Part shown: piece by piece, positions 1-53,298 of the stretch | How the letters are laid out: each line of letters starts with the position of its first letter | Position numbering within the stretch: position 1 is the stretch's first letter | Source: Gracilaria domingensis | Taxonomy: Eukaryota > Rhodophyta > Florideophyceae > Gracilariales > Gracilariaceae | Assembly: GCA_022539475.1 (NCBI GenBank) | Contig: VCMS01000237.1 | Location: forward strand, 1 to 64,000 | Direction of reading: 5' to 3' | Length of the DNA: 64,000 bases | The notes under the pieces: generated by a model | Told to the model about the DNA's origin: nothing | What the model saw: the letters and a program-made list of their open reading frames with translations, nothing else | Databases searched by the model: none | Position numbers and translations under genes: made by a program

Positions 1-559
1 ACCACCTCAAGACCTGGGTCATTGCTTCGCCGTGCAACTCGCGGCGTAAGAACACTTCAATTCCATGCAACAACGCTTCCCGACATGCACCTTTCCTTTC
101 ATCCTCAATATCCATCTGCAGAGAAACCCGCATTCAACCTTGGCAATAATCGAAGTGCTCGCCGAGTGCAAGGAGTCACGCTTTGCGTACGCTTTCGAAC
201 ACGAGTTGTTCATTTGAACAGCTAGTGCACCGTGAAAGGTGTATTCAACAATACGCTGCGCGCTCTGGACGATTACAACAAGGGAGGCGAGCCTTTAATG
301 CGACTTACGCTGGCACCCGCTTTCGCAGCTCCTCCCAGCCGCAACTGCGTCTTTCGTCCGTGTCCTGTCGCGTGGCCAATCGCACCTCGATTGTACAACC
401 TTTAGAGTCTGGAGTTCGCGCATGATGAACTCACGCGAGCAATGGTCGCGTTCTCTAAATCATGCTCTTCAAATGCTTTGCATAGTAGTCAGAGTAACTC
501 AATTCATTCATGTACACCTACTCCGCAAATACACGTGGACAGCGGCGCAACGTAACCGG
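1..559. other. unassigned left flank
   Basis: Moderately GC-balanced sequence with short open frames on both strands. None has a recognisable domain, compositional bias or convincing start. I see no gene, repeat or RNA that I can support here. Confidence 0.4.
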
Positions 560-1420
560 GGGCCGGTGTTAGCGAAACCACTGCGCGGCGGCGTGTTTTG
601 GGAAGGTCCCGGGAAGGACCGGAAAGTGGCCAGCAACGTGCCGGGGCGGGGGGGGTCGGTCGTGTTAGGGTACCTACCCTAGGCGGGGGGTCCGGTCGTT
701 GTTAGGGTAGGTACCCCCTAATACACGATCACGTAAAGAGCGGAGCTACCCCCCCTCGCCCGCGGCATAAATCGGACATTTTTCAAAAATCGCCCATAAA
801 CGTGTCCCGCGGGCGGCGGGGCGGTCGTCGTTAGGGTAAACCTACCTAACCGACCGGACCCCCCACCCCGCCCGCGGGCACGTTCTGGCCACAATCTGGC
901 ACCCTCCGGAGACCTCCCAAAACACTCCCCCGGCACTTCCTGTACCCACTGCGTCACTTAGTGCACCATCCCGTCATCTTCACCTCCAGACACTCCTAAT
1001 TTCCGGGATGGTGCACTGAGGTGACCATCCCGTCTTCTCCACCCTCCGACACTCCTAATTTCCGGGATGTGCACTGAGGTGACGCAGTGGGTACAAGAAG
1101 TGCCGGGAGGAGTGTTTTGGGAGGTTCCGGAGGGTGTCAAAAAATCGTCCAAAACGTGCCCGCGGGCGGGGGGGGGTCGGTCGTGTTAGGGTAGGTACCC
1201 TAACACGACTGGACCCCCCCGCCCGCGGGCACATTTTGGACGATTTTTTGAAAAATGTGCGATTTTATGCCCGCGGGCGGGGGGGTCCAGTCGTGTTAGG
1301 GTACCTACCCTAACACGACCGGACCCCCCCGCCCGCGGGCACGTTCTGGTCACATTCCGGCGCCTTCCGGAGACCTCCCAAAACACTCCTACCGGCACTT
1401 CCGGCAGTGATTTCGCTGCA
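560..1420. repeat. nested GC-rich foldback repeat complex
   Basis: Four palindromic cores lie at about 643-720, 806-880, 1157-1231 and 1268-1341. Each core starts with CCCGCGGGCGGG-like sequence, runs through a GTGTTAGGGTA half-site and returns as its reverse complement. The outer arms also match each other inverted: the GTGTTTTGGGA block near 593 and its complement near 1375 share about 90 aligned bases. The whole stretch could therefore fold into a large multi-stem structure. It lies just left of the methyltransferase promoter and is the probable left subterminal region of the transposon, or a foldback element inserted into it. Confidence 0.75.
893..1145. repeat. inner palindrome with tandemly duplicated hairpin at its centre
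   Basis: TGTACCCACTGCGTCAC at 941-957 is matched exactly by its reverse complement at 1079-1095. The arms continue outward for roughly 50 more bases with few mismatches. The centre (958-1078) contains two tandem copies of a sequence that is itself hairpin-forming, with GTGCACCATCCCG and its complement at about 961-973 and 1004-1016. This looks like a small non-autonomous foldback unit. Confidence 0.7.
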
Positions 1421-1439
1421 CACGCCGTGCACATATATC

Positions 1440-1689
1440 AAACTAGAGAAAACTAGCGCTTGACACCTACTTGATCCGCGACTTTTAGCACAATACGGGA
1501 CCGTTGCAATAGCTCCGAATCGCGACGTGGCCGACACGCGACGCTATCGCTCCGACACGCGACGCTATCGCTCCGAGCGGACACGGACACGGACGAGACT
1601 GGCAGTGCGCTGGGAGGAGCTGCCGAAAGCGGGGGTGCCCAGCGTAAGTCGCCATTTAAAGGCTCGCCTCCGTTGTTTGCGCTGAAGCG
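1440..1689 (+). promoter_or_regulatory. leader/promoter region of the methyltransferase-SET gene
   Basis: This is the 250-base stretch between the foldback complex and the methyltransferase start codon. It contains an exact 21-base tandem duplication (1531-1551 and 1552-1572), then a GGACAC triplet repeat and an AT-rich TTTAAAG motif near 1655. No canonical TATA box stands out. The promoter assignment rests on position only. Confidence 0.35.
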
Positions 1690-4600
1690 ATGGATTCCAC
1701 CGATGTTGGAGAGGAGATACATCCTATCGACATGAGTGCTCCGCCTCCGGCGTTCCATGCATATGTCAGACTTTTCTTGGTTCTTCGCGATGCTTTGGCA
1801 AACAGCGATGGAGGCCCTGATCGGCCACGGGACGTGGGGTTTAGAGGGTTAATAGAGTTCTGCGCCGAGAACTATAAGGATATTCCGGAGGCAAGGAAGA
1901 TGTTTGAGGAGGCCACTAACTCCAAGAACCTGCAGAACTTGACACTGCAACAGCTGCGAAAGAGTGTTGTGAATAACAAACCTGTGGAACAGCGATATCT
2001 TGTAACGAAGATTCTTGACAAGAAGGACGGGGATGAGGACCAGAGACTGCGCGATTTTTTCCTTCTCTCTATGGATATGGGTATATACCTACCGGTGCGA
2101 TGCCTGGCTGGTTATTTCATGACCAGGAGAAAGCAGGTTCTGAAGACGACAGTGTTCATCCCACCAACAGCTGTGAACCCATTTGAGGTCGTTATATACT
2201 TATCATATCTCAGCCACATAATGGGAGAGAACGACAACATCCGAATGATGAAGAAGAAACAACCGAAAAAGAAACGAAAAGTGAACCATGCACCATCTGT
2301 GTACATACCCACTTTTACGTCGTTCTCCAAAGACAACTGTGATCGACTGGGATTCGCTATCAGTGAGGTCGTATGGGCATGGAGTTGTTTTGCGGCTCAT
2401 CTTGGATACACGAACGTTCAGCACATGGTGAAACCATACATTTACATGAATATGCAGACGTTGAAGTATACAGCGCTAGAGACACGGGAGTCTGGTTATG
2501 CCCCGCCGAGCCAGAGTACTCGATTCAACACAAAGGATGTGCCACAGAGCAGTACTAGTGGATCGGTGGAGACCTTGAGTGATGAATGCGATACAAACCT
2601 GCGAATACTGGCTAAGGAGTTTTTGACAGACCTCGAAACCATATGCACCCACGATAGCCTCTATAGCTTACGGGCTGATCAGATGAGGAACTGGATAGAG
2701 TTTTCGAAGATACGGATGGATACCGTATCTAGCTCTGACTCCGGTGAGTTGCCTGCTCGATTTCAGAAGTTTTCGGAGTTGCTATGGAAACCGATACAGG
2801 ATATGCGTCATGCGGCAGGGTTCCATGTCGGCATTCACGCGAAACCTGATATTGAACTGACGAAAACCCCTAAAACTTCCGGTAATGCCGAACCTTCTTC
2901 GACCAAGTCTGCCCCACCCCCACCTCGTCGAGAGTATATGAACCTCGTGAGCTCCGATAGCGACGAGTTCGAGAAGCCGGTGGATCTTGCGGAGCATGAA
3001 TCTCGGGTTGCCGGTTACAACATCCAAAAGACTGGTATTGAGCCGCCCATGAAGGGGATATCCAGTCTCCTTCGAATGAATATGGACAAGGTGTGGAAGG
3101 GGATGAGAAAGTCACACTTGGTAGCGTACAACTGTGACATGACGGACCTGAGGCACACACACGAAACGTTTGTGAATCAGAGTGAGATTTTATGGGGTGA
3201 GGCACAGCTTGTCCTAACAGACCCTCCCTTTAACACTCGAAGGAAGAGGAACAATCGGAATAGTGGTCACGATGTCTTCAGTGAGGAAGACATGATCCGT
3301 ACGGCTGACTTAATAAGTTCCGCGCTTCGGTCAGGTGGGCACTTCATTATATTCTGTGCCATGGCACAGTTTCATGTGTGGCACAGGATACTTTCGGAAA
3401 CGGCGAGTACGAAAGATGAAGCTGGAAGCGAAGGTAAACCAGAACTCGTGCCTTCGTTTAAAGTGGATGCGAATCTACTGGTGTTCATCCGGGATCGCAG
3501 TAATGTTGGAGGGAATCCACGGAAGTTTGGGATACAGCCCGTAACGGAGTACGCCGTTCATGGGGTGAAGCGTGGATTGCGACCATCGGAGGAAGCCAGT
3601 CTTACTCCATTTGAGGAGAACAATTTCATTCCTTCTACTTTCCCGGCTAACAGGAATGTAATTGACCGGGTGCCAAAACCGAGAGCGGGGGAGTGGTTGA
3701 CATGGAAGGTACATGAGCCAGGTAGTTCAGTACCAGGTGGGCAGTACATAAGACCGGAGCAGAAGTCGAGGGAGTTGATGAAGGAGTTGATATGTCGCTT
3801 CACAAGACCGGGTGACCTTGTCATGGACATGTTCGCGGGAACTTTTTCTACGGGTATGGCGTGCCTATCGCTGACAAAGCATAGGAAGTTCTTGGGGTGC
3901 GAGAAGAATAGGCCATGCTTCAGCCATGCGAAGCACCGTCTAACGACTCTTATGGCCGAAGTTATTCGCGTGGGGAAGAATGACATCCTGGTTGAACAGG
4001 AGGTGGTGGATGCGGCTTCAACGACCCATGAACGGGTTCCACATTGGGACCGAGGTCGGCTTGAATGGGAGGCTCCATTTGGTTACCCCCAGTACCAAGT
4101 GATGCCTGGACATATTACTCAGTTCTTAGGAAGATACTGGAAGGACTGGGACTTTGTCGAGAAGTGTGGACAGCGTACTGTAGATCTTTGGGAGAGGAAG
4201 TACCGAGGAGCTCTGAATCTTATGGATATGCATATGCTGTTGACTGTTGAAGCCAATCGCTATCGCTTACATATAGCATCTTCTAAGATTCGACATCCCC
4301 GTGCTGGTATGGGGGTGTTCACGGAACATAAGATATTGGCTGGGGAAACTATCTGTCATTTCTATGGAACTTTGGTATACACGGATCTGACGAACCGGAA
4401 GGAAAGACACTTAACGTATGGAAGTGGCTGTCTCGGAGCAACTCCAGTGCGGTACAAGTTGTGTTCTATGATGGTCACTGTGACTGGTACGGAGTTTTTG
4501 CACCTGAGGAACAGACCAGGACAGGCTCAGGATAGAAAGGAGAGCGAAGTCTACATTGTCCCGGCGCCTTTTTGTATCGGGGGCTACATTAACGACGCCG

Positions 4601-4827
4601 GATATCATGCCGGGGATCCCGATTTATCGGGGCCCCGGTCAAACAGGACTCGAAGTGCCAATGTGCAGGTGGTGGAAGCGAAGTCCGTGATACAGTTCAA
4701 GTCAGACCTTTCTAACTATGCTCTACTTCGTTGTAGAGCAGTAAGAGATATTGAGAGGGGCGAAGAGTTGTATTTCAACTACGGAGAGCAGTACGCCTGG
4801 GACTGGGCTCTGACATTGGAGCAATAG
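1690..4827 (+). CDS. DNA (adenine-N6 or cytosine-N4) methyltransferase fused to a SET domain
   Basis: This 1045-residue frame is uninterrupted. The N-terminal half (1-480) is unrecognised apart from PKKKRKV at 192-198, which matches the classic SV40-type nuclear import signal. A methyltransferase domain follows. TDPPF is near 510-514 (catalytic motif IV), and GQYIRPEQKSRELM then leads to MDMFAGTFSTGMA at 712-724 (SAM-binding motif I). That motif order is the beta class of amino-methyltransferases, which in bacteria modify adenine N6 or cytosine N4. A SET domain occupies about 862-1036, with GMGVF, then YINDAG in place of the usual NHSC-type motif, and the closing GEELYFNYGEQY. SET domains methylate protein lysines, commonly histones. 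One protein could therefore write marks on both DNA and chromatin. The position beside a transposase suggests element self-marking; this is inference. The start ATG is the first in frame, after a stop-containing leader. Confidence 0.85.
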   Translation: MDSTDVGEEIHPIDMSAPPPAFHAYVRLFLVLRDALANSDGGPDRPRDVGFRGLIEFCAENYKDIPEARKMFEEATNSKNLQNLTLQQLRKSVVNNKPVEQRYLVTKILDKKDGDEDQRLRDFFLLSMDMGIYLPVRCLAGYFMTRRKQVLKTTVFIPPTAVNPFEVVIYLSYLSHIMGENDNIRMMKKKQPKKKRKVNHAPSVYIPTFTSFSKDNCDRLGFAISEVVWAWSCFAAHLGYTNVQHMVKPYIYMNMQTLKYTALETRESGYAPPSQSTRFNTKDVPQSSTSGSVETLSDECDTNLRILAKEFLTDLETICTHDSLYSLRADQMRNWIEFSKIRMDTVSSSDSGELPARFQKFSELLWKPIQDMRHAAGFHVGIHAKPDIELTKTPKTSGNAEPSSTKSAPPPPRREYMNLVSSDSDEFEKPVDLAEHESRVAGYNIQKTGIEPPMKGISSLLRMNMDKVWKGMRKSHLVAYNCDMTDLRHTHETFVNQSEILWGEAQLVLTDPPFNTRRKRNNRNSGHDVFSEEDMIRTADLISSALRSGGHFIIFCAMAQFHVWHRILSETASTKDEAGSEGKPELVPSFKVDANLLVFIRDRSNVGGNPRKFGIQPVTEYAVHGVKRGLRPSEEASLTPFEENNFIPSTFPANRNVIDRVPKPRAGEWLTWKVHEPGSSVPGGQYIRPEQKSRELMKELICRFTRPGDLVMDMFAGTFSTGMACLSLTKHRKFLGCEKNRPCFSHAKHRLTTLMAEVIRVGKNDILVEQEVVDAASTTHERVPHWDRGRLEWEAPFGYPQYQVMPGHITQFLGRYWKDWDFVEKCGQRTVDLWERKYRGALNLMDMHMLLTVEANRYRLHIASSKIRHPRAGMGVFTEHKILAGETICHFYGTLVYTDLTNRKERHLTYGSGCLGATPVRYKLCSMMVTVTGTEFLHLRNRPGQAQDRKESEVYIVPAPFCIGGYINDAGYHAGDPDLSGPRSNRTRSANVQVVEAKSVIQFKSDLSNYALLRCRAVRDIERGEELYFNYGEQYAWDWALTLEQ

Positions 4828-5010
4828 ATGAGTTCAGTACCGAATAAAAAGTAAATATGCTTGTGAGTGTTGCAGCTGCCTGCAATACGCGTTGTTGTAC
4901 ATGTACACTGGAGCTCTTCATCTGTAACGGCGATATTTCCGACCCATTGGGCACCTCAAATTCCTAAAAAGCAGGAACTGCGGAGTCTCCCGGAATATCT
5001 GAACCATGCA

Positions 5011-5037
5011 CCCCCCCCACCCCCTCCCCCCCTCCCC
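5011..5037 (-). promoter_or_regulatory. four-run C tract, possible G-quadruplex on the minus strand
   Basis: Runs of 8, 5, 7 and 4 cytosines are separated by single A or T bases, 38 bases upstream of the ATG at 5075. The opposite strand has four guanine runs with one-base loops, a strong quadruplex-forming pattern; the plus strand could form an i-motif. It would lie in the leader or promoter of the coiled-coil gene. Function is unproven. Confidence 0.5.
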
Positions 5038-5074
5038 AACAATTTCGTTTCATTACCCTGTTTATCTCCACAAC

Positions 5075-7039
5075 ATGGGTATAACGCCGAGAAAGCGAAA
5101 TAGTACGCAGCGGAACAAGAGTGGACAGAAGAAGAGAAGAGCATCGGATGATACGAATCAGGCTACAAGCACCGCACTTCCTAAACGGAAGTCGTCCTCG
5201 ACGAAGGAGAGAGTCAGTGGGCGTCCTTCTACAGGACTCTCTCGCCCATCTCGCAGCGGAGCGTCTTCCGGGATTGCGTCAAGAATTCGTGGATCAGCGA
5301 ACGATGTCGTGCCGTCAACTGCCGATAATGCAAATCGTGCATCTGTCTCTGCTCCTCAAGAAGATGAGGTAACTCGGCCCAGCGGGTCAGGACAGGAAGG
5401 CATGACAACTGGAACCGAAGAGGTTCGTATGACACCAAAACCTTCATGTCCCCGGCCGATATCGAAGACCGGAGCTACTGGGGCGCGGGTAACGCCGCCC
5501 AGTGGATCTGGACAACAAGGGACAATGACGAGAAGTCGTGAGAGCCCTAGTATATTAAGATCGTCACGTCCATCCCTGTCTTCTAGAACTGGGGCCACTA
5601 TGAATCGTATCATGCCTCGCAATGGGTCCGGACAAGGGAGAAAGACAATAAGAAATCGAGAGACAACTGATAGACGAGTTACTCCTCGACCTTCCCCTCT
5701 TTTTAGAACGGGGGCCGTTGCAGCTCGTACGAGGCCCAATTCATCTGATATACCATCCCATGGAGGAGGACAGACACGGGAGTTGGAGCTCGGAGCCGTG
5801 CCAAGGGTGGACACAGAACGCCTGTAGCCTCTCGTGTCTAAGGCTATGGCACATGAGGATAGTTCCGATAACGAAATAACACCGAATCCTGCGGCATTAC
5901 CGGGGCCTGTCGCCGAAGAAGCTAGGAAAATAACGGAAGATATCCAAACTGGTGTGAATTCAAGCTCTATGAACAAACCTGATCTTTTAAATGAACTGAA
6001 TTGCTTGAAAGAAAAGGTTAAGACGCTACAAGAGGACTTGATGGTTCGGGGAATTCTAGTGAAGGTCGCCCAAGAGCAGAGTACGGCTTTGAAAAAGAGG
6101 CTTGAAGAGAAGGATCTAGTCATTGAAGGGCTAAGAGGGGCACTGAAACAGGAGGGAGATAGGAGTACACGTGCTGGTGAACCTGGGCAGACAGGTCGAA
6201 AGAAGCATAAAATTGAGGTGTGCGACGAGTTTCGAGGGGTTGCTCGAGCAGTGTATCACAACATGCTGACGTAGGCAAGGAGAGAAACAAGTGAGCTATG
6301 GCTCGAAGGTGAGTCGCTCACCCGAAATTGGGGTAACCGTGCCGAGAAGGTGGAAGACGCAACTGAGAGTGGGGAAGGGCTTATTGAGCCGGAGGAAGGT
6401 GGTTCATACATGGTTCCTAAAAACCCCGTGGAGCTCTTGGGCAGTTTTGGCATGTTCACACCGTCGGTAGAGGGGGCGCCAGATGCTTTGCTGAAGAAAA
6501 TGGTTGAAAGCGAGTTGAAGGAGTTGAGCTGGGAAGGTATTAGAAAAGCATCTCTTACCGACAGGTGTATACTGGAACTTTGTGCAGATATGTGCCTTAG
6601 GCAGAGAATGCAGCAGACCATGAGTGACGTCGTGGGCGTTCGTAAGAGAAATACGAGAGATAAACTATTTCTGCTCCTGGGGTACGATCGGATTTGGAGA
6701 AGAACAAAGCTGGTAGAAGAGAATGCTGACGAACTCACAATGCAGTTGAAGGAAGCGCAGGAGAACATACTGCGTCTTGACGAAAATGGTGTACCGAACA
6801 CTTCATGGTGGAGAAAAGCCCCATTTGTTAAGCTTAAGTGCCTTAGAAGACGAATCGAAGTGTTCAAGAGTCGGAAAGAAACCGCCTTTCACGAGGGCCG
6901 AATTCACCACAGTTATCCTTGTCTTTTCTGGGAAGTATGTAATAGAGTGCTCATCCAGTGTTTCTTTCACGAGACTGAGGAAAGGAGGAAGGGCCTGTTC
7001 ACCAATTTGATCAAGAATCGACCTTGTGTCCCTACTTGA
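5075..7039 (+). CDS. basic repeat plus coiled-coil protein of the transposon; one frame crossed by two TAG codons
   Basis: A single reading phase runs from the ATG at 5075 to TGA at 7037-7039 (654 codons). It contains in-frame TAG at 5825-5827 and at 6272-6274. The first part (about 250 residues) is Ser/Arg/Pro-rich, with RKRN and KKRR nuclear-signal-like clusters and three tandem repeats of about 40 residues, each built around a GSGQ core and an RTGA-like end. The second part (about 149 residues) has a heptad-rich helix (LLNELNCLKEKVKTLQ and on). The third part is helical with another coiled coil (KLVEENADELTMQLKEAQ). The third part has no ATG until 6410, so separate genes are unlikely. Either two nonsense mutations broke it, or short introns remove the stops: GT-AG candidates of 36 and 57 bases, both multiples of three, surround them. 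I do not recognise a family. It probably works with the transposase or the methyltransferase. Confidence 0.6.
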
Positions 7040-7060
7040 GAACATCTCTCTAACAGCAGT

Positions 7061-9577
7061 CTATGTTTTTGAACTGGACATACTTGAAACACAATGTTGA
7101 AGAGCTCGTAAAGTGAAAGAACGCCCTCTCATTGCAAACCGAGGAAGCTGTGTGGAAGTTCCTGGTAAACCTGGATTACGCTGGTAAGGAGTATTGCCAT
7201 TCCATTGCTTTCTAACATGTCCGTGCTCAATGGAGCGAATAGTCTCCTCCACAGCCGTTGCTGTTCTTCTGGACGTCTTTTTGTAGTGTCTCTTAAATAG
7301 CAGGTGTGCATGTTCGTATATGCCTGCGTCGTAGTACTTGATACTTCCCAGACGGCGAATATCGTCCACGAGATGATCGAGAAGATGAAACTTCAGAGTT
7401 CCCAGTCTGGAGGGATGAAAATCCGCCAGAGTCTTTGTTGCGGAACGCTTGAAGGCTTCAATCTCCGAACTAAGACACAGGAGAGAGCTTTCAGTCCAAT
7501 ACGGGTCACGATTGTATCTGAATAAGGTCGAGAGCAAGTCCGAGTACTGAGAGAAAACGGTTGTGATTGGGGCAACGTCCTGTTCTCCACAGCATATGTC
7601 AAAGAATGCTCCTATGAAGGGAAAGACCATGTCAAGTGCTTTGTAGTTTTTGGCCTCCAGCATTCCACGGAGACCGTCTTTCGTGAAGATACCATTCAAA
7701 GATTTGCCTTTCTCCTGCGTGGAGAAATCGATATGTAAACCTTTGGCAGGAGAATCGCGTTCTATGGCAGCTAGAATTGCGTTTGCATGGTTGAGGAGTT
7801 GGGTGCGTATCGTTCGAAATGAACGCGATGCAGATGTTCCTATTGTGGTGCACAGGGTGTGTGACTGCAGTCTCTCGATTGTGGCCGTTTTTATCAACTT
7901 TGAGATGCCGAGATGCAAGTTGTGTAATGGTTCGAATGAGAACAGACTGTATGGAGACAATCCCGGGATCATTCCAAGGCTTACGGAAGTTTCGAGGAAC
8001 GAAGGAATGAGAGATATGGAATTTGAACGCATCAGAGTATCCGCTTGAGATCTTCTCTCCCTCGCACGACGTGGACGTCTTTCCGCCTCGTCTCTTTGTG
8101 CATGTTGCAAGATAGCTGTGTATGTCTTTCGGATGCTTTTCGTGTGCTTTTGAGAACGTCCGTTGAATGAGGTGGGAATAGGACTGCATAAAGATGAGCG
8201 AGGGGCTTTGCATCTATGACACGGGCTTTCCGTTTTGGTCCCATGAAGAATGGACAGAATGTCCTTAGCCTCAGGAATATCCGCACAATAACTTGCAAGC
8301 AGATGATGGCACACTCGACTTAGTTTGTCTTCCCGGATGAACTGAAAACCTTTCTGCGTGAGATTTAGAATGGGCTCCAGGACTTGACGAAGAGATTCTT
8401 GAAGGATTTGCATCCTGGACTCGCGTAGAGACTTGCTAGAAACAAATGGCATTGCGTCTGCTTCAGATGCGGAAACCTCGATCGGTGTGGTAGGGAAGTA
8501 TGCCACTACTGTGAGGTCATCACGGATACACTTACGGCGAAGCTCGTCGGAGAAGTTGAGAAATATGAGGTGAAGAGGATAGGCGGTAACCGATGTTTGC
8601 TTTAGAGTTGTTGAAGACTTATCTGTGTATACCTGCAGAAGACCTAAGAAAGATTCACTGTAACTTATTTCTTGGGAGTACCACACTATTCTACTACCCA
8701 AAAAGCCCATGACCATTTCCTTAAGTTTTGAGGTGGCGTCTCTTGCGAGAGAGCCGGACATGGGGTGAGATATTTTCGTGGAGTGGGTCTGAGGTATAGG
8801 GTGGAAGAATGTGTTTTCGTTGTTAGCCAACTGGAGCTGTTTCACAAGTGTCTGAACGGGGTCTCTCGTGTAGAGGGTGGCGCTGAACTTACATCCTTCT
8901 GGCGAGACAGTTCTGCGATTGAAACCGTCCTTTGAGGCGTATCGTTCGAAAATGGCGTTCTTCAGTTCTGTACAGCGCTTGGAACTTGTTATGGTCTCGT
9001 TGAATCGCTTTTGCGAGAATCGCGGGTCCCGAAGTAGCCCAATTAGCTCGTCCGCCTCACGATGACCAAGGTTGGAAGCTACTGAAGCCAGACAAACCGT
9101 GAGATAATCCATATGCAAATCACCGAGGGTCTCCTCAGAAGGCACTGGGCGGGAACTGCTTCCGTGTTCTCGCTCTAATGACGCGGGACCCGGGGAAGGA
9201 GAAACACAATGCGAAGTGTCCGGAATGAGAGGGGCGCACGGAGTGGGGTCGACGATGTCCTCGGACACTGGAGGCTCGGGAAGGCGACAAGGGGCAGTGA
9301 CCGTTTCGGAAGATGCGGGCGCGGGCGCGGAAGGCTTGAGACGCTTGCTTCTCCGAATGGCCCGGCTATTGTCGTCTTCCAGCGCTGCTTTCAGACGAAA
9401 CGGGCAATGGTTGACATGCTGTTGAAGAGATAAGACTCCTCGGCGAGTAACGAAGGGGCACCCACGCTTCTTATGTGTACAGTAGTAGACCATGGGAAGA
9501 AGAAATGAACGAGAAACGACGACAAAGACTGCAAGGGAAGGGCGTCCGAAGGGAGAAGGAGGTGGAGCGACAGTCAA
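7061..9577 (-). CDS. Plavaka/KDZ/CACTA-like DDE transposase
   Basis: An intact 838-residue frame. A C2H2/C2HC-like zinc finger lies near residues 33-59 (YYCTHKKRGCPF then HVNHCPF). A disordered Pro/Ser segment follows to about 150. The catalytic core shows VYTDKSS with Asp319, as in the Plavaka motif that begins the RNase H fold, then CHRCKAP, FEPLHNLHLG with Glu549 where relatives usually have Asp before LH, and YYDAGIYEHAH with Glu755. An Asp319/acidic549/Glu755 triad is therefore plausible, and family members cut and paste DNA through such a triad. The start could be 9577 or the ATG at 9493 directly before the zinc finger. It converges on the coiled-coil frame with 21 bases between the stops. 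Glu at the second catalytic position is unusual and could mean altered or lost activity. Family placement is from motif memory, not a search. Confidence 0.72.
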   Translation of the reverse strand: MTVAPPPSPFGRPSLAVFVVVSRSFLLPMVYYCTHKKRGCPFVTRRGVLSLQQHVNHCPFRLKAALEDDNSRAIRRSKRLKPSAPAPASSETVTAPCRLPEPPVSEDIVDPTPCAPLIPDTSHCVSPSPGPASLEREHGSSSRPVPSEETLGDLHMDYLTVCLASVASNLGHREADELIGLLRDPRFSQKRFNETITSSKRCTELKNAIFERYASKDGFNRRTVSPEGCKFSATLYTRDPVQTLVKQLQLANNENTFFHPIPQTHSTKISHPMSGSLARDATSKLKEMVMGFLGSRIVWYSQEISYSESFLGLLQVYTDKSSTTLKQTSVTAYPLHLIFLNFSDELRRKCIRDDLTVVAYFPTTPIEVSASEADAMPFVSSKSLRESRMQILQESLRQVLEPILNLTQKGFQFIREDKLSRVCHHLLASYCADIPEAKDILSILHGTKTESPCHRCKAPRSSLCSPIPTSFNGRSQKHTKSIRKTYTAILQHAQRDEAERRPRRARERRSQADTLMRSNSISLIPSFLETSVSLGMIPGLSPYSLFSFEPLHNLHLGISKLIKTATIERLQSHTLCTTIGTSASRSFRTIRTQLLNHANAILAAIERDSPAKGLHIDFSTQEKGKSLNGIFTKDGLRGMLEAKNYKALDMVFPFIGAFFDICCGEQDVAPITTVFSQYSDLLSTLFRYNRDPYWTESSLLCLSSEIEAFKRSATKTLADFHPSRLGTLKFHLLDHLVDDIRRLGSIKYYDAGIYEHAHLLFKRHYKKTSRRTATAVEETIRSIEHGHVRKQWNGNTPYQRNPGLPGTSTQLPRFAMRGRSFTLRALQHCVSSMSSSKT

Positions 9578-9858
9578 TATCGACGTCTTGCTCAGAACGG
9601 AGAATATATTTTGAGTTTAAATCACGTGCTTTCGTTCAAAAAGGAACGTAGGTACACGTCGACCTCAACACAAGGGTGTACTTCTCGTATTATCTACCAC
9701 TGGTTATAAACCTGTGGTTTCCCAACGTTGTACGCTGTACACTTGTCCAATCTCGCACAGAAAAATAAATCTCTTCCCTCCGCCGCCGCCCCCGCCCGTC
9801 CGACGTCCGACCTTTTGTTACCGTCGTGATCCGTGCCATCCTCGCGTTCTACTCCGCT

Positions 9859-9922
9859 CCGTCGTACGTTTTTCCGCCCTCGCACTCGCTACAAAGTGCG
9901 AGGGCGGAAAAAAGTACGACGG
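9859..9922. repeat. 28-bp near-perfect hairpin right of the transposase
   Basis: CCGTCGTACG... pairs with ...GTACGACGG through 28-base arms with a single mismatch and an 8-base loop (CGCTACAA). The stem includes TCCGCCCTCGCACT and its complement. It lies about 280 bases upstream of the transposase start and is probably part of the right subterminal repeat region. Confidence 0.85.
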
Positions 9923-10189
9923 ATTACGAAGTAGCGTGCTGAGAATGGATTGCATTAAGCGGACATGAAGCGTACCTCATTCTCTTTCTCCGCCCTCGTC
10001 GGACGCCTCCATGAAGCGGACAGCATCCGTATCTCACGGATGTATTCCGTGCAGTCTTTCCGTGCAGTCTTTTCGTACGTGCTTCCATATCCTTCTACGT
10101 ATCTTTGTTCTAAACTAACCAATCCTCACCACGTCTCTTCGCGCTCTGCGACATGTGAACGGCAGGAAAAAGGCTTTGGGTTACTTTTG

Positions 10190-10706
10190 CGAGTTACTAG
10201 GTCCCTCGACTTTTCTAGCGCAACGTTTCTGTTTTGCTCTTATCAATGGTACGTTCTATCGCATTTCAACTGTATCCAACGGAGCATTGACTAACATATG
10301 GATACTTTCTGCTTGCGTATACAGGTAAACGACCAATTTCATTTCGTCTCTCAAGATCGATCTCTGGCTGTTCGGGATAGGCGATTCTGGTACTTGGTTG
10401 GGACATAGGCTGCTCTTTCGTTTATCGCATCTTGAGGTATGTTTGCTGCATGGGCATTCTTGGTGTCCTTGCTTGTGAGTTCTCGCTTCGACACCTTTCG
10501 CGCTTTACGATGATGGTGGGCTGGTAATCTAACCGATCCCTTTCCTTCTTCTTTTTCATTTTACGAGTTACTAGGTCTCTCGACTTTTCTAGCGCAACGT
10601 TTCTGTTTTGCTTTATCAATGGTACGTTCCATCGCATTTCAAATGTATCCAACCGATCATTGACTAACTTATGGATACTTTCTGCTTGCGTATACAGGTA
10701 AATGAC
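10190..10706 (+). repeat. direct repeat of about 143 bp, two copies (10190-10332 and 10564-10706)
   Basis: Both copies start CGAGTTACTAG and end TATACAGGTAAA; they differ at about a dozen positions. The copies are spaced 374 bases start to start. The end resembles a splice acceptor followed directly by a donor (ACAG/GTAA). That could be chance, or a remnant of a duplicated leader exon boundary. No coding potential was seen. Confidence 0.8.
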
Positions 10707-10743
10707 TTTTGATGCGGACGTAGCTCACGAGTTGCAGGTGCAG

Positions 10744-10921
10744 GTTCCTCAAGTAGGGAACCATGCATCTGGGCATGGTTCCCTACATGAGGAACGGAGA
10801 GGATGAGGCGCTTCGCGCCTCATCCTCTCCGTTCCGCTTCGCGCCTCATCCTCTCGGAGTGCGTATTTGTTCTACCGATACAGCCGATGGTGGACTTGCA
10901 GTCTGCGGCATCTGCCGCAGA
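10744..10921. repeat. cluster of three perfect or near-perfect hairpins
   Basis: Hairpin one has about 23-base arms (10744-10766 and 10773-10795, one mismatch) around ATCTGG. Hairpin two has exact 21-base arms (10791-10811 and 10815-10835) with a TTC loop. Its right half is repeated again at 10836-10857. Hairpin three (10902-10921) is TCTGCGGCA with its complement. Such stacking mirrors the palindrome complex at 560-1420 and supports a right transposon end here. Confidence 0.8.
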
Positions 10922-10925
10922 TTGC

Positions 10926-11372
10926 GCCTACACCCGCTCCATCATGGGGATATGGTACATGTAATATAGCGAAGTAGTGGTTAGCAAAAGCGGTCGATAA
11001 AAGAATAGATACGAATAAAAGGGTATGATTTCATAATGGGCATCATCTGTACTAGCACTAGTATTCCATGCGTTGCAGGGTATCATTCCGCAGAAGGTGT
11101 CGTGTAATGTGCACCTTAATGGAAACTGAACCTAGACTTCGCGAAATACAGTTCAGGTAGCCCTCGACTAAAGAACTAGCACGAGTGGAAAACCCACCAG
11201 TATTTACTGCACAGCGATTCTGGACGACCCAAGCAATTATCTGCAAATTTTGAAATAATTGATCTCGATATTTTTTCAAAAAATTTACTGGACGACCCTT
11301 GCCAATTTCTGGACGACCCTCGCCAAAAACTAGCATCTGCAAGAGACAGACGCGGACACTTCCGCTTACGCC
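10926..11372. other. spacer between the DNA transposon and the Gypsy element
   Basis: AT-rich and non-coding. TCTGGACGACCC or CTGGACGACCC occurs three times (about 11219, 11288 and 11311) just ahead of the Gypsy open frame. No LTR matching the downstream LTR-like block is present, so the 5' end of the Gypsy element is missing or unrecognised. Confidence 0.5.
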
Positions 11373-12650: not shown

Positions 12651-12695
12651 GATTCAGAAGAAGTATGCTTGACGCAATGAATCAAGTACTCATTA

Positions 12696-15600
12696 TTGGA
12701 TCATATTGCTAAAGATTCTAGGGGACGCACATTTGACAGGCGAGACTACCATCCCGACACGGATCAGGAAGCGGTCATTTCGGAGAAGATATCTCACTTG
12801 CTTCCTCAAGCGCAGGAGAGGCTACGTACTACTCTACTTGATTTGGATGTCGTGGCCTGGTCATTGTACGATCTCCGCCCTTCGAATGTCCCCGTCATGC
12901 ATGAGTTCTCCCATAGAGACGATACACCGATACATTCGCGAGTACGCCGCCTGCCGCCGAAACACGACGAGGTGGTTAGGAAAGAAGTCGATAAGATGCT
13001 GTCAGCCGGAATCATCAAGCCTTGTACGTCCCCTTGGTCCTTCCCAGTCGTCATAGCGACCAAGAAAGATGGGAAACCAAGGATCTGCGTAGACTACAGG
13101 CCTCTGAATAAGGTCATGAAGGCTGAACGCTGGCCACTCCCTCACATGGACCAGATCTTTGATGACTTGCGAGACGACAGCTATTTCACCACTCTCGACC
13201 TGTTCTCTGGCTATTGGCAGATCCGGATGTCGCCTAAATGCAAGGAAATGACCTCTTTTGTCTGCAGGCAGGGCACGTACCAGTTCGAAGTCATGCCTTT
13301 TGGTCTCAAGAATGCACCTTCTACATTCCAGCGCATGATGGACTCAATTCTGAACCATTGTGAATACGCTCGCGTTTATGTGGACGACGTGTTCATATAC
13401 TCTAAGAGTCTTGAAGAGCATAGAGAGCATGTGGAGGACGTTCCAAGAACTATAGCGCGCATGGGTTGAAGCTGAAGATTTCCAAGTGTGAGTTTGCACA
13501 ACCTAGGATCGAGTTACTTGGGCACGTCGTGGACGAAACTGGTGTCGCAGTGGACATGAGAAAGATCGACACGATTCGAAACGCACCTGTCCCGACTACC
13601 GTCACTGAGTTGAGAAGCTTTCTGGGCCTTGCAGGGTATTACCGTCGGTTCATCACGCACTTTGCTGAGACTTCGTCGGTCTTGCATGCCTCCACCTCGG
13701 GTAAGGGAAGACTCGAATTCACTGAGGAAATGCTCAAGGCCTTCAATGAGCTGAAGCAAAAGCTCACGAGTCCATCGGTGTTGGCATTCCCCGACTTTGA
13801 CTCACCTTTCCGTGTGGAGACCGACGCTTCGTCGGTTGCCCTCGGAGCTGTCCTCACTCAAAGAAAGTCGGATGGAACGTATCACCCTGTGCAGTACGCA
13901 AGCAGGACCATGACAGCTGCGGAAAGAAAGTACTCAGTATGTGAGAAAGAAGCCTTGGCTGTGATCTTCGCTTTGAAAACGTTTAGGATGTATCTGCTTG
14001 GGTCTCAGCCTTTCCAGTTGGTCACGGACCACCAGGCTTTGAAGTATGCTTTCTCGAAGAAAGATATGCATAGCAGATTGGCAAGAGGGTTAGACTTCCT
14101 GGCAGAATATGAGTTCGAGATCCTCTACATGGAAGGCAACAAGAACCACGCCGCTGATTATCTCTCTCGTTATGCCGCTGCGAAGGAGAAAGCGGAAGAG
14201 GAGGATACGGCGATGGTTGCTGCACCGATTTCTGACGTCTTTAGTGGGCTGGAACCGTACTACGCCAACATCGGAAGACACCTGAGCCAGATTCCAATTG
14301 ACGAACCTAACATGAAGCTCATAGCTGCCGTGAGGCGCAACTCGAAGAAGTTCACTGTCTGGAACGGGCGCCTCTACTGCCGTATTGGCACGTGGCTGAG
14401 ACTTGTTCCTGATATAATCGAAAGGACCCAAATCATCCGGACCTTCTATGATGACGTTGGGCACTGGGACGTGGCAGCCACCACGAGGCATCTTTTGGAC
14501 AGATTTTGGTGGCCTGCTATGCGCGTTGAGGTCACCAAATATGTCAAGAGTTGCAATGGTTGTCAGTTCATGGGACCTTTTCTCTCCTACCGCGCCGGTC
14601 AGCAGGCTCTTCTCACTAATGTGTTTGACACATTTTCTACTGACTTTGCTGGACCTTTTCGGCCTACTAGCAGTGGAAATAGGTTTCTTCTGATGGGAGT
14701 GGAACACTTGACTGGATGGCCCATAGCCCTGGCTACAAGAAACGCGACTGCTTCAGAAGTTCTGAGATTTGTCCGACAAGAGATTGTCGGTTCTTTCGGG
14801 TGCCCTCGGACGATCGTCTCTGATAACGCAACCTCTTTCCTTGCAGCCACCGTTCAGCAGTACATGAGAAAGCATGACATCTCACTGAAGCCGGTGCTAG
14901 CATATGCTCCTGTCTTGAATGGACGCGCAGAAAGAATGGTCGGAACCAGTAAGAGAGCCATTGGAAAGATCGTCTATGAAAGAGGAATCAACTGGGACGA
15001 AGCACTACATGACGTGCTGTACGGATACAGGACTCGTAGGATGTCTGAGGGATACTCACCCTTTCAGCTTCTCTATGGGACCCGTCGTCGTATGCACCGT
15101 ACGGACTTTCCTCGTCTGATCCCCGATGCCACAGACGCGAATCGTCTCACGGAAGTGGAAGCAGCTACCGTGGGAAGGGCCACTCGAGTCGACAGGCAAG
15201 TACCCCGGCAGGATGACGAACGATATGGACACAGGTTCGCAGTTGGAGATCAGGTACTTGTCATGCGTGGTGAAGCCATGAATCCGTCGATCAAATGGCC
15301 TCCGTTTGTTACTAAGTTCTATGGCCCTTGTCGCATCATACGCGCTAGCCATCCGCGTTACTACTTGATCTCCCCACACCGCCGCATGTCCAGGAGAGGT
15401 ACTCATGCAAGAAGGCTCAGGCTCTACCATGAGAGACCGGATAACCTAAGGATTGACGCCAATGACACTCAGGATGCTCTCGCTATGCCGATCTTGGTGG
15501 ACTACGAAGTCTACAACAATGAAGTGAATTACTTGGAAATGGAAGTCGGTGGAATTACCCTGCGTGACTGGCTCTCTCCGCTGCACTGTGAAGACTGGGA

Positions 15601-15970
15601 GAAGCACAGGATTATTTGGAATTGTTTCCACTTGTGCCTTAGTGTGCACCACGTTTATGGCCAGTATATCACACGACGTTCTCATGAGATGCTTGGACGA
15701 CTGGCACGTAGGCTACACCCCCAGATGGTGAGGCTTGGCGCCGACAGGGCCATCTTTCTTCTCTATCACTACGTTGTTGGGAAGTATGGCCTTCTACCGC
15801 CAGCAGCCACGCATGAAGAGAGAGTGGTGGACTATATCAGGCTCATTGGTCAGCGAGAAGAGTTCATTGTGGACTTTGAGCCGGACCCGTACCACCCAGA
15901 GCCCCCATACCCGTTCCAGTACACTACGGAAGAAGTTTCAACGAATGAATCTGTGGAGCCGACGATGTAA
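12696..15970 (+). CDS. Gypsy pol region: reverse transcriptase, RNase H, integrase
   Basis: Reverse transcriptase motifs are clear: RICVDYRPLN near 13085, then TTLDLFSGYWQI, then VMPFGLKNAPSTF, then YVDD near 13380. RNase H follows with ETDASS, CEKEALAV and VTDHQAL. Integrase has an H2C2 finger (HWDVAATTRH... CNGCQ, about 14460-14560). Its catalytic core contains TDFAGPF, SDNATSF and GRAERM, the D,D,E set. The GPY-like C-terminal part (FYGPCRI) is followed by an extension of about 170 residues with no recognised domain. Fossil copy; frames long but broken. Confidence 0.92.
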
Positions 15971-29998: not shown

Positions 29999-31727
29999 AT
30001 GTTTGTCGCCTTCAGTTCGTTCGCTGGAGTGTCGCTTTGTGACAAACGTGCTCGAATCAGTCAGTCAGAGGGATTCATCCACCGAGCATCGCAGGCTCAT
30101 GCGAGCCATGGTAGAGTTTCAATCAGAAACTCGTTATCAGACGAAAGTTACGACGTTATCACAATCGGCTCAGGACTCGGCGGGCTTTGCGCATCAGCGT
30201 TGCTTTCCACATATGGTCTTCGCACACTTACACTCGAGTCTCATACTGAGACTGGTGGTGCTGCTCACTGCTTTTCGAGAAGAACTGCCCACGGCAGCGT
30301 AACTTTTGAGTCAGGGCCGCATCTTTTCTCTGGTCTTCAGTATCCCTCTGACAACCCTATGTATCATGTGTTGCGTGCCGTAGATGCCCGACTTGACGTC
30401 ACTTGCTACGATGCCTGGGGTGTGTTCCTGCCAGACACTTACGTGCGAACAACACTTCGAGCTCGAGAGCCCCTTTTTGAACAATTACTCAACGTAGCCG
30501 GGGGACCAACTGCCCATACTGAAATGAGCAATCTTACGAATGCTTTGCGCCCGTTAGGGGAAGCCGCATCTATATTACCTCCGGCGGCTCTACGTGCCTC
30601 TGACATTACTGGTTCTCTTCGAGTTGCTTCCCGATACATACTATCCCCAAGCTCCTTGTCCCACATCCCACGCATATCCCAACTGTCACGCCCCTTCTCC
30701 ACAGTTCTAGATCGCTTCGTGTCTGATGATTTTGCCCGCAACTTTATGAACCTTTTATGCTTCCTACTGGCCGGAACAACAGCAGAAAGAGTCCCTGTTG
30801 CTGAAGTAGCATTCATGTTTCGCGAGTGGCTCGGTGATGATGCCGTTCTTGGTGCTCCTGTCCTACAGCGACCTGTCGGTGGGGCTTCCGCTGTAGCAAA
30901 GTCGCTCATCGAAGCCATAGAAAGGCGGAATGGTGTTGTGCAGACAAGATCACATGTGAATCGCGTTCTTATTGAAGCTGGCCGAGCAACTGGAGTACAA
31001 CTAAAGTCTGGTCGTACAATCCGAGCCAAGAAAGCTGTCATTTCGAATGTCTCTGCGCTGGATGTTCACCGTTTGCTGCCGGGATGGAAGAACCACGTTG
31101 ACAAGCCTCGGAGGGAAGGAAGCAGTGGCGAAATGTGCCCATCTTTCATGCACCTTCACATTGCATTAGAATTAACAGACGATATTCGGTCTCGTTTGCC
31201 TCATGGCACTCTGGAGCCGAACTATGTTAGCGTTGAAGACTGGTCGCTCGGATTAGAGCATCCGGATAATGTCGTTCTTATCAGTGTGCCTTCTGTGTTA
31301 GACCAAGGTGTATGTCCAGCTGGTCACGCTGTGTTACACGCTTACACACCGGCAACTGAACCATTTGAGAACTGGAGCTCACTGGAGCCTGGCACTCCGG
31401 AGTACGATGAATTCAAAGATAAGCGTTCTCAGGTCTTGTGGAGAGCAGTTAATCTCATCTTCAACACTGACATTCGTCCAGAAGCATACATAAAGCTTAT
31501 TGGTACCCCAAAAACCCATGCCCGATTTCTTCGTCGACGAAAAGGTTCATACGGGCCGAAGGTTAACAAGGATGCCCGGTTTGGGGCTTCCATTTCCTGG
31601 ATCGGGAGACTACCCAGAGCGATTTCATTGCGTAGGTGATGGTGTGTTTCCTGGGATCGAGGTGCCTGCTGTAGCTGGAAGCGCATGGATAGCAGCGAAC
31701 GGATTTATGTCCGTTCAAGAACAATAG
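29999..31727 (+). pseudogene. carotenoid isomerase (CRTISO)-like FAD oxidoreductase, one frame change near the 3' end
   Basis: A dinucleotide-binding motif lies at residues 57-62 (GSGLGG in DVITIGSGLGGLCAS). It is preceded by about 50 Ser/Arg-rich residues that fit a plastid transit peptide. Downstream are FESGPHLFSGL, FREWLGDDAVLG, QRPVGGASAVAKSLIEAI and GTPKTHARFLRRRKGSYGP, all typical of CRTISO-like flavoproteins that isomerise or reduce polyene substrates. The first frame closes at 31639. The expected C terminus (HCVGDGVFPGIEVPAVAGSA) continues in another phase to TAG at 31725-31727, so a single-base change lies near 31570. Everything else is intact, so this could be a recent pseudogene or an assembly error. 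A strongly decayed copy lies at 55.5-57.4 kb. Exact substrate unknown. Confidence 0.8.
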
Positions 31728-50502: not shown

Positions 50503-51477
50503 TCAGGTGCTGAATCTTATAAATCTTCGCAATCTAGTACTTAGATTGCGCAAAACTCGTCTGTAGCTTTGATTCGGCCCCCTAGTAAAGAATGAAAACA
50601 ATGATCTATCCAATACCGAACGCAAAGGGTTTGTAGTGTGTGCCGTTCTCTGAGAAAAAAGAAAAACGCGCTCATCAAAGCATCGTCGTTCTGGATGGTC
50701 TCGATCCTCAATTACTTGTCCGTAAGCCCATCCCAAAGCCAGACAATTGTAACCCAAACCAATTTCATTTGACGTCAACAACGGTAGTCCAGATAAAAGA
50801 TCGTTGCTTAATCTATCCTCAAACTGAGATCGAAAGTACTGAATCTCTGATGGCTTGACGCCGGCTGCCTGCGATATGGCGTGAACAGGGTCTGCAGCTG
50901 CTACAAATCCTGATTCTACAAGACATGATAGCAGCAGCAAAAAGGTGTCTCTATGCCAGCGGTTGAGGCCTCTATCGGTTTCCAACGACATTGAATTCTT
51001 CACTACTAGAAACAATAGCCAAACAGCTTTTCGTAGCAGCAGATGATGATGAAAGAAGTCCTGTGATACTAAAAAGTCGAACTGACACCACACATGAGCA
51101 CTGATCATAAACCCTTTGTAATTCTTCGGATAAATCGCACGACATGGCGGAAGCGACGGTACCAACGTTGACTCAAGATCGTCTTCGCATGTAAGTCTGC
51201 CATCCTCCGTGACGTATAAATCAGCAAAGTAGATGTCGGCCTCCGCAAGGATTAAACGAAAAGACAGCGGCCACTCGGGGATATTATTGTAAGATATATC
51301 GTGCATGGCAAGATACACAGCAGAAGCAACTGTCTGACGATTTGGAAGTGTGTTCAAAGTTGAATAGTATATGACACGGGCCACTTCGGCGACGGAAGGT
51401 GGTAATCGGCACCCACGGACAATGGAAGTGATGCATCCCGTGAGATACGGTTCTGATGAGCGCGGTAGAGAAGACAT
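50503..51477 (-). CDS. retinoblastoma-N-like (double cyclin-fold) protein, intact paralogue 1
   Basis: An intact 324-residue frame, paralogous to the plus-strand gene at 52441. Shared blocks are FMISAHVWCQFDFL versus FMVTAHVWREYDSL, and AVWLLFLVVKNSMSLE versus VLWLFYLIVKASILS. Others are LLLSCLVESGFVAAADP versus LMLSCLLESGFVASDDP. The W-L-F...K...HLLL-CL pattern resembles the N-terminal DUF3452/cyclin-like region of retinoblastoma and p107/p130 proteins. That assignment is from pattern memory and is uncertain. No A/B pocket domain follows; the unique C terminus is Arg-rich (RRVLRNLSTRLRRFIRF). It is divergent from 52441 with a 960-bp spacer. It may be a truncated cell-cycle regulator or an unrelated all-helical family. 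Confidence 0.6.
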   Translation of the reverse strand: MSSLPRSSEPYLTGCITSIVRGCRLPPSVAEVARVIYYSTLNTLPNRQTVASAVYLAMHDISYNNIPEWPLSFRLILAEADIYFADLYVTEDGRLTCEDDLESTLVPSLPPCRAIYPKNYKGFMISAHVWCQFDFLVSQDFFHHHLLLRKAVWLLFLVVKNSMSLETDRGLNRWHRDTFLLLLSCLVESGFVAAADPVHAISQAAGVKPSEIQYFRSQFEDRLSNDLLSGLPLLTSNEIGLGYNCLALGWAYGQVIEDRDHPERRCFDERVFLFSQRTAHTTNPLRSVLDRSLFSFFTRGPNQSYRRVLRNLSTRLRRFIRFST

Positions 51478-52440: not shown

Positions 52441-53298
52441 ATGTCAGGTATCATCATTTTCCCGCGTGCCATATTCTATGATTCTATCGATGTACTGGTT
52501 GCAGGGCTCCGCTTCCCAAAGGTCGCTGTTTACCTGGCCAGAGCCATACACCACTCAGTGTTCTTAACGACACCGGACCCCTACTTCGCCGCATGTGCGG
52601 TATATATTGCTGCAAGTCGTTCTGACCATATCCCGCAGAAAACGCTCTTCGAACTGCTGTTAGCGGCATACTCCGATGAACTTTACTACTCGTATTATTT
52701 TGTACACGACGTTGATGCAGAGCTCGACAGTTATCTTCCCCCCGACGAGCTTCGTATCATTCATGAACGGACCCAAACACCATTCCCGCCCCATCAGTCA
52801 CACAAGGCTTTCATGGTTACGGCTCACGTTTGGCGTGAATACGATTCTCTACTATCGCGTGATGTTTGTCACAAGAGTCCGCTCATTTCGAAAGTTTTGT
52901 GGCTTTTTTATCTGATAGTCAAGGCTTCAATCTTGTCGCCGTCTGAGAGGGACACATCTCGGTGGCACTCGTATAACCTCATGTTGTCATGCCTCTTAGA
53001 GTCCGGCTTTGTCGCCAGCGACGATCCTAAAGACGCAATATTTCGCGCCACGGGTAACATGCCACTCGCGTTACAGGATTATCAACAAGATCTTGGTTCT
53101 CAGTTAGACAGTTCCATCCGAGATATGTTACCGCTTTACGCGGCCACTCAAGAAGTATTGGAAACGTATTACATGGCCTTGAATAACACCTATTTTGAAG
53201 AGATCATTACCAATCCTCGCTATATAGGAACTGATGAGCGTATCTTTTTGACTGTTCCCTGTTCTAACCATCTCCACCACCCCAACTTTGTCGATTGA
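52441..53298 (+). CDS. retinoblastoma-N-like (double cyclin-fold) protein, intact paralogue 2
   Basis: An intact 285-residue frame with start context CATAACAATGTC, conserved with the 45588 copy. DPYFAACAVYIAASRSD looks like the second helix pair of a cyclin fold (compare ACALYVACR of p107). VLWLFYLIVKASIL and HSYNLMLSCLLESGF look like the second fold. The C terminus (RYIGTDERIFLTVP) is shared with paralogue 1 only weakly. It ends well before any pocket domain. It has a nearly identical broken copy 6.9 kb upstream. Family call is tentative; gene status is firm given the length and the conservation between paralogues. Confidence 0.62.
   Translation: MSGIIIFPRAIFYDSIDVLVAGLRFPKVAVYLARAIHHSVFLTTPDPYFAACAVYIAASRSDHIPQKTLFELLLAAYSDELYYSYYFVHDVDAELDSYLPPDELRIIHERTQTPFPPHQSHKAFMVTAHVWREYDSLLSRDVCHKSPLISKVLWLFYLIVKASILSPSERDTSRWHSYNLMLSCLLESGFVASDDPKDAIFRATGNMPLALQDYQQDLGSQLDSSIRDMLPLYAATQEVLETYYMALNNTYFEEIITNPRYIGTDERIFLTVPCSNHLHHPNFVD

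Follow-up and report, generated by a model that had tools for sequence, protein, structure and literature searches.

The first 64,000 nucleotides of contig C237 of the red alga Gracilaria domingensis (hereafter the window) raise the question of whether a gene for a fused DNA methyltransferase and SET domain belongs to the transposon in which it appears to lie and, if so, what it might do there. A Plavaka-type transposon fills window positions 1–11352 (+ strand) with its right part; its left part is missing, because window position 1 is also the start of the contig. The original prediction had recognised the transposon but confined it to 1690–9577, which proved too narrow. Further copies were sought in the whole genome assembly (77.9 Mb, 680 contigs), in which the window is positions 1–64000 of C237.

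The fusion gene and its place in the element

The fusion gene was located from the list of open reading frames (ORFs) and with Pfam. It occupies 1690–4827 (+ strand) and encodes 1045 amino acids (aa) in one open frame, as had been predicted. Both of its domains score above their Pfam cut-offs: a beta-class N6/N4 amino-methyltransferase domain at residues 506–743 (3205–3918, + strand; N6_N4_Mtase, E = 3e-15) and a SET domain at residues 873–1032 (4306–4785, + strand; PF00856, E = 2.4e-7, 31.6 bits against a cut-off of 22.4). The sequence DPPF (residue 511), motif IV of amino-methyltransferases, stands before DMFAGTFSTG (residue 713), motif I. This is the beta-class order, with DPP[YF] ahead of an FxGxG-type motif in a matching fold, and it too agrees with the prediction. 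In the SET domain, N968 is conserved in 43 of 48 aligned sequences and the catalytic Y1031 in 41. With the family profile, chains of KMT2C and SETD8 were hit (E about 2e-4), and there are matches to viral SET models. The methyltransferase domain alone cannot settle whether N6-adenine or N4-cytosine is the target, as a passage of PMC8885841 notes.

At least 54 relatives of the fusion, 28–46% identical to it, were found in other sources. Catalytic residues are kept in the 48 aligned sequences, and their persistence among such distant relatives argues for function of the fusion over long times. One relative, P0006 of Chondrus crispus (labelled "adenine specific DNA methyltransferase"), belongs to the same two-domain family, with 33% identity across 98% of the region used as query; it was compared as a protein alone. 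Two relatives, P0046 and P0050, are longer. The N terminus of P0046 looks ParB-like by eye, with no profile support; if the likeness is real, it would tie the fusion family to phage ParB-methyltransferases (compare A0A6J5MMM5). Three SET matches on C382 (11387, 35738 and 111587) span 504 or 501 nucleotides within frames of 1169–1170 aa and are possibly a diverged methyltransferase-SET lineage.

A viral origin of the whole fusion was rejected. Among the 600 stretches of viral contigs listed (89 relatives, 80 of them kept), matches were confined to residues 459–773, the methyltransferase and its edges, and none reached the SET domain; the VIA-align listing for the fusion covers mainly residues 469–759. 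A prokaryotic origin of the fusion was likewise set aside after two narrow-pattern scans of genome contigs, the first of which confirmed no relative, while a single generic methyltransferase match (residues 687–751) came from the second. For the methyltransferase half we infer an ancestry among the N6/N4 methyltransferases of bacteria or phages, possibly those of the ParB-methyltransferase kind.

The boundaries of the element were established by comparison of copies. DNA alignment of the window with 10 fetched copies stops at a common right boundary, window position 11352, where only C315 differs, by one base. The right terminus, GCATCTGCAAGAGACAGACG (11333–11352, + strand), was read at the junctions of these 11 copies and the left terminus, CGTCTGTGTTCTGCA, at three loci. 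The reverse complement of the former agrees with the latter at 12 of 15 positions, giving terminal inverted repeats that read CGTCTGT..ACAGACG. A 25-mer from the right terminus has 459 exact matches across the genome, against none for the control. At C173 and C63, where both ends were read directly, large internal deletions have left both termini in place and the flanking dinucleotides match (TT and CC). More broadly, 13 of 24 left–right end pairs among the listed ends share a flanking dinucleotide (shuffled mean 3.3, maximum 10 in 20000), which shows 2-bp target site duplications (TSDs), as Plavaka elements make them (2 bp, or 2–3 bp). For the pairing, the 100 left ends listed were all taken, together with those listed right ends that lie on C2–C77; a G at the third flanking base excludes a site from both end patterns, and some true pairs will therefore have been missed or mis-joined. 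The full-length element is estimated at ~22.8 kb, from C315 together with the left-end position in C173. The 13 TSD-flanked pairs are shorter (10.2–14.5 kb), and four longer pairs of 22.0–22.9 kb showed no matching flanking dinucleotide among the listed ends. The family is a high-copy, recently spread DNA transposon. At C65:29401–29796, a fragment of a family left end sits in inverted orientation, with ~2 bases between it and the right end of another copy.

Gene order was compared across the genome, with SET-domain matches serving as a stand-in for the whole fusion protein. The counts draw on the best 150 of 311 candidate SET matches, 54 of 1660 for the transposase, 131 of 619 for the dioxygenase-like part of a ~1300-aa ORF in longer copies, and 131 of 528 for ORF1; because these lists are incomplete, the order fractions do not estimate how many copies keep each gene. 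Nine SET matches (eight strong ones, L001–L008, and C3:333749) were dropped, leaving 141, and the three C382 matches and one on C356 were kept though they look diverged. A colinear SET match accompanied 18 of the 54 listed transposase matches, mostly 4.93 kb away, and no other arrangement occurred within 12 kb. On C1–C68, the contigs to which this count was limited, 21 of 27 listed SET matches had a colinear right end within 12 kb and one was otherwise arranged (of the 100 right ends listed, the one on C69 was dropped and 99 entered the count). Colinear SET matches were found for 29 of the 131 listed dioxygenase-like matches, with one arranged otherwise, and ORF1 was colinear with 42 of the same 131, mostly at ~4.0 kb, with no other arrangement within 6 kb. 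ORF1, the dioxygenase-like part and SET follow in order at at least nine loci, and C34 holds in one row ORF1 (187660), the dioxygenase-like part (191677), SET (199359) and a right end (207523).

Because the contig start cuts the element, the window alone cannot show both ends, and one could imagine a host gene caught by chance beside the transposon. We give this next to no credence: chance adjacency is refuted by the same order and spacing at many loci. Among the listed matches in this genome we found neither fusion homologues restricted to single-copy host loci nor transposases that are never accompanied, the two patterns that the original prediction had named as telling against it. Recurrent fixed-spacing pairing with the transposase, together with family ends, inverted repeats and TSDs, bears out the claim that the gene rides on a mobile element, and we are nearly certain that the methyltransferase-SET fusion belongs inside it.

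The transposase and related elements

The transposase gene lies at 7061–9577 (− strand), convergent with the fusion gene, and matches the Plavaka family (PF18759, E = 2.9e-18; 66.6 bits in the window and 68.1 in a longer copy, against a cut-off of 26.3). At least 22 relatives of the transposase were found. In an alignment of 21 sequences D438, C458, C461, H736 and H740 are invariant and D324 and E760 nearly so; the assignment of the catalytic triad is our own choice. A C(2)C and an H(3-4)H motif lie between the second D and the last E, as in Plavaka transposases, and the part bearing D, D, C(2)C, H(3)H and E survives in the window copy. The prediction of a convergent Plavaka transposase was thus sound, except that the gene is not intact. 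A TAG stop at 7061–7063, where copy C91 has TGG, truncates the frame to 851 aa, against 1100 aa in 39 of the 54 listed copies (two with one internal stop). Alignment to other copies, C91 among them, places the junction of a ~1153-nt internal deletion at 6829–6831. Stop and deletion together remove ~250 C-terminal residues, several invariant positions among them. The same deletion disrupts the frame that had been described as coiled-coil: low-complexity and coiled-coil ORFs are present (5006–5827, 5834–6274 and 6350–7039, + strand) as remnants, none of which has a Pfam match above its cut-off.

A Pfam model for KDZ transposases exists, and only PF18759 appeared when the window and a longer copy were searched at E up to 1. 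The description "KDZ-like" does not hold, as Plavaka transposases are placed near EnSpm/CACTA, not KDZ, in the relevant passage of PMC12730594. The element was not assigned to PlavakaA or PlavakaB either, since the fungal termini of these groups (TGT..ACA and CATCA..TGATG, respectively) are not matched by CGTCTGT..ACAGACG. Other Plavaka subfamilies are present in the genome (profile ~106–317, several 1110-aa frames); by eye, they are not regularly near listed SET matches.

Among the closest known counterparts are the fungal Plavaka elements that carry TET/JBP enzymes (PMC12730594). They share with the algal element the C(2)C and H(3-4)H motifs of the transposase, the 2-bp TSD and the carriage of an enzyme that acts on epigenetic marks. 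The algal element differs in its red algal host, its termini, its inferred length in the longest copies and its cargo, a methyltransferase-SET fusion; no match to TET/JBP was found in it. The HarbingerS and MuDR elements of Phytophthora are also DNA transposons with a SET methyltransferase; they belong to other transposase superfamilies, and a fusion to a DNA methyltransferase is not mentioned in the source passage (PMC12730594). The N4CMT of bdelloid rotifers (PDB 8s9m) likewise joins a bacterial-type N6/N4 amino-methyltransferase to a chromatin-type domain in a eukaryote, but it is a host gene with a chromodomain and SPPY, whereas the algal fusion is transposon-borne, with SET and DPPF (PMC8885841).

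Among the papers listed in a search of the open-access literature, judged by title or start of abstract and with Repbase outside its scope, none describes a transposon with a DNA methyltransferase-SET fusion. Retrotransposons with C5-methyltransferases and DIRS elements with a methyltransferase domain exist; these are retroelements with other methyltransferase classes, and we know of no SET domain in either. Transposons are usually viewed as targets of epigenetic control, and one with a writer of DNA marks fused to a histone-mark-type domain would be an actor. It would also exemplify one path into the chromatin of eukaryotes for DNA methyltransferases of bacterial type. Hundreds of similar copies in one red alga, with and without the fusion gene, make this a testable case.

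Possible roles of the fusion

The methyltransferase is probably active in intact copies. We favour, with moderate confidence, a reading in which the fusion acts in trans on the DNA or chromatin of the element and counters host silencing. Its methyltransferase half would place the mark on adenine (or, at N4, on cytosine) within the element, where the SET half might modify a lysine of a histone or other protein. Methylation of the element could then open its chromatin, which in turn would favour expression of the transposase or its access to DNA. Two analogies make us prefer this reading: the TET/JBP enzymes carried by fungal transposons, for which a role against silencing has been proposed (PMC12730594), and the association of N6-methyladenine (6mA) with a permissive state across eukaryotes (PMC12695648). 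The anti-silencing role itself is put forward tentatively.

Several observations weigh against this favoured reading. The 6mA work concerns MT-A70 enzymes, another class than the fusion (PMC12695648). Among 11 copies selected by their transposase, the fusion is complete or nearly so in four (C315, C65, C91 and the window), partial in four and absent from three. C63 and C173 lack it, and no SET match among those listed (best 150 of 311) falls inside the 13 TSD-flanked pairs. Such copies imply that an element can do without the fusion in cis, and perhaps altogether. The ratio of nonsynonymous to synonymous polymorphism (pN/pS), measured against single reference copies, is 0.68 for the fusion, which indicates weak constraint within this genome; the values are 0.34 for the transposase and 0.54 for the ParB/dioxygenase-like gene, and the fusion value omits the gene-less copies C63, C173 and C127. 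In C91 and C315 the fusion frame is fragmented, through either decay or errors of assembly. Comparison of 4,504 fusion codons revealed no change to a stop codon by substitution, a count that ignores insertions and deletions. The usual SET motif is N-H; here it reads ND (N in 43 and D969 in 42 of the 48 sequences), which makes SET activity uncertain.

The weak constraint and the many copies without the gene would fit a passenger that merely rides along, with no part in transposition or silencing. Longer copies do hold other host-like genes, namely HAD hydrolases and, by eye, sequences like ketopantoate reductase and ribulose-phosphate 3-epimerase. We consider a passenger rather unlikely, as relatives at 28–46% identity with the same catalytic residues point to long-term retention and the fusion stands at a fixed spacing to the same transposase. 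The fusion might instead silence its own element with a repressive DNA and histone mark, thereby limiting damage to the host or hiding the element. This seems improbable: in rotifers the enzyme is encoded by the host and not by a transposon, and recent spread to high copy number does not suggest effective self-silencing. Dam methylation times some bacterial transposons to replication, and methylation of the ends or of internal 30-bp repeats (iterons, described below) could similarly signal newly replicated copies to the transposase and so time its jumps. We are equally disinclined to accept this coupling, because the iterons do not lie at the ends and 4 of the 11 fetched copies have none, and because it leaves the SET domain unexplained.

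Other genes, iterons and the rest of the window

Longer copies carry, on the opposite strand and divergent from the fusion gene, an ORF of ~1300 aa that is absent from the window. Residues 305–352 match phrog_3264 ("ParB-like partition protein") weakly (E = 0.0015), and no Pfam match appeared at E up to 1. Comparison of P0046 with this gene gave E = 0.09, no evidence of relationship. An HTD..H..R pattern is suggestive, by eye, of a 2-oxoglutarate dioxygenase; this part had no match in phages and none in Pfam at E up to 10, and its PDB matches were at chance level. At nine loci, HTD was read in six, altered in C91 and not found in two, and four showed the second motif including its His, which C91 and C69 have in altered form and which three loci did not reveal. 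Of the 131 listed matches to the dioxygenase-like part tested, 103 have no internal stop. Two deposited proteins of this gene skip the HTD..H stretch as if it were an intron, which weakens the dioxygenase reading. A structure model of the protein (two sequences) had a mean predicted local distance difference test (pLDDT) score of 28.5 and was not used. Public labels of two copies, "mediator of RNA polymerase II transcription subunit 15-like" and "cell-wall-anchored protein SasA", are a warning to annotators. Beyond this gene lie two HAD-type hydrolase genes (Pfam). The same stretch also holds a ~415-aa ORF that resembles, by eye, a ketopantoate-reductase-like plant protein, with no Pfam support, and a fragment that resembles ribulose-phosphate 3-epimerase, again by eye.

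Between the ParB-like gene, where present, and the fusion gene, sequence analysis revealed an array of G/C-rich inverted repeats (window 640–1345). It includes a 30-bp palindromic iteron, GTCGTGTTAGGGTANNTACCCTAACACGAC, present exactly at 1180–1209, and a second copy found by iteron search at 1290–1319. With up to three mismatches the iteron occurs in 7 of the 11 fetched copies and in none of five shuffles of the window. One might imagine the ~23-kb element as a portable epigenome kit, in which two divergent genes, one for a ParB-like DNA-binding domain joined to a DNA-oxidising 2-oxoglutarate dioxygenase and the other for the methyltransferase-SET fusion, are grouped around iterons that serve as a parS-like loading site. 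Such an element would recognise the iterons it carries, both add and oxidise marks on DNA, and place a histone mark upon its own chromatin. We regard this as speculative and unlikely.

Immediately to the right of the transposon, 12681–15967 holds a retroelement with a reverse transcriptase in one ORF and, in the next ORF in a different frame, RNase H and H2C2 integrase domains; its integrase core scores below the cut-off. Two opposed ORFs at 50506–51477 (− strand) and 52441–53295 (+ strand) look related, sharing stretches of sequence by eye, and neither matches a Pfam family at E up to 0.01. The ORF at 29999–31636 resembles flavin adenine dinucleotide (FAD)-dependent amine oxidoreductases, by eye carotenoid isomerase in particular, and is probably a host gene.
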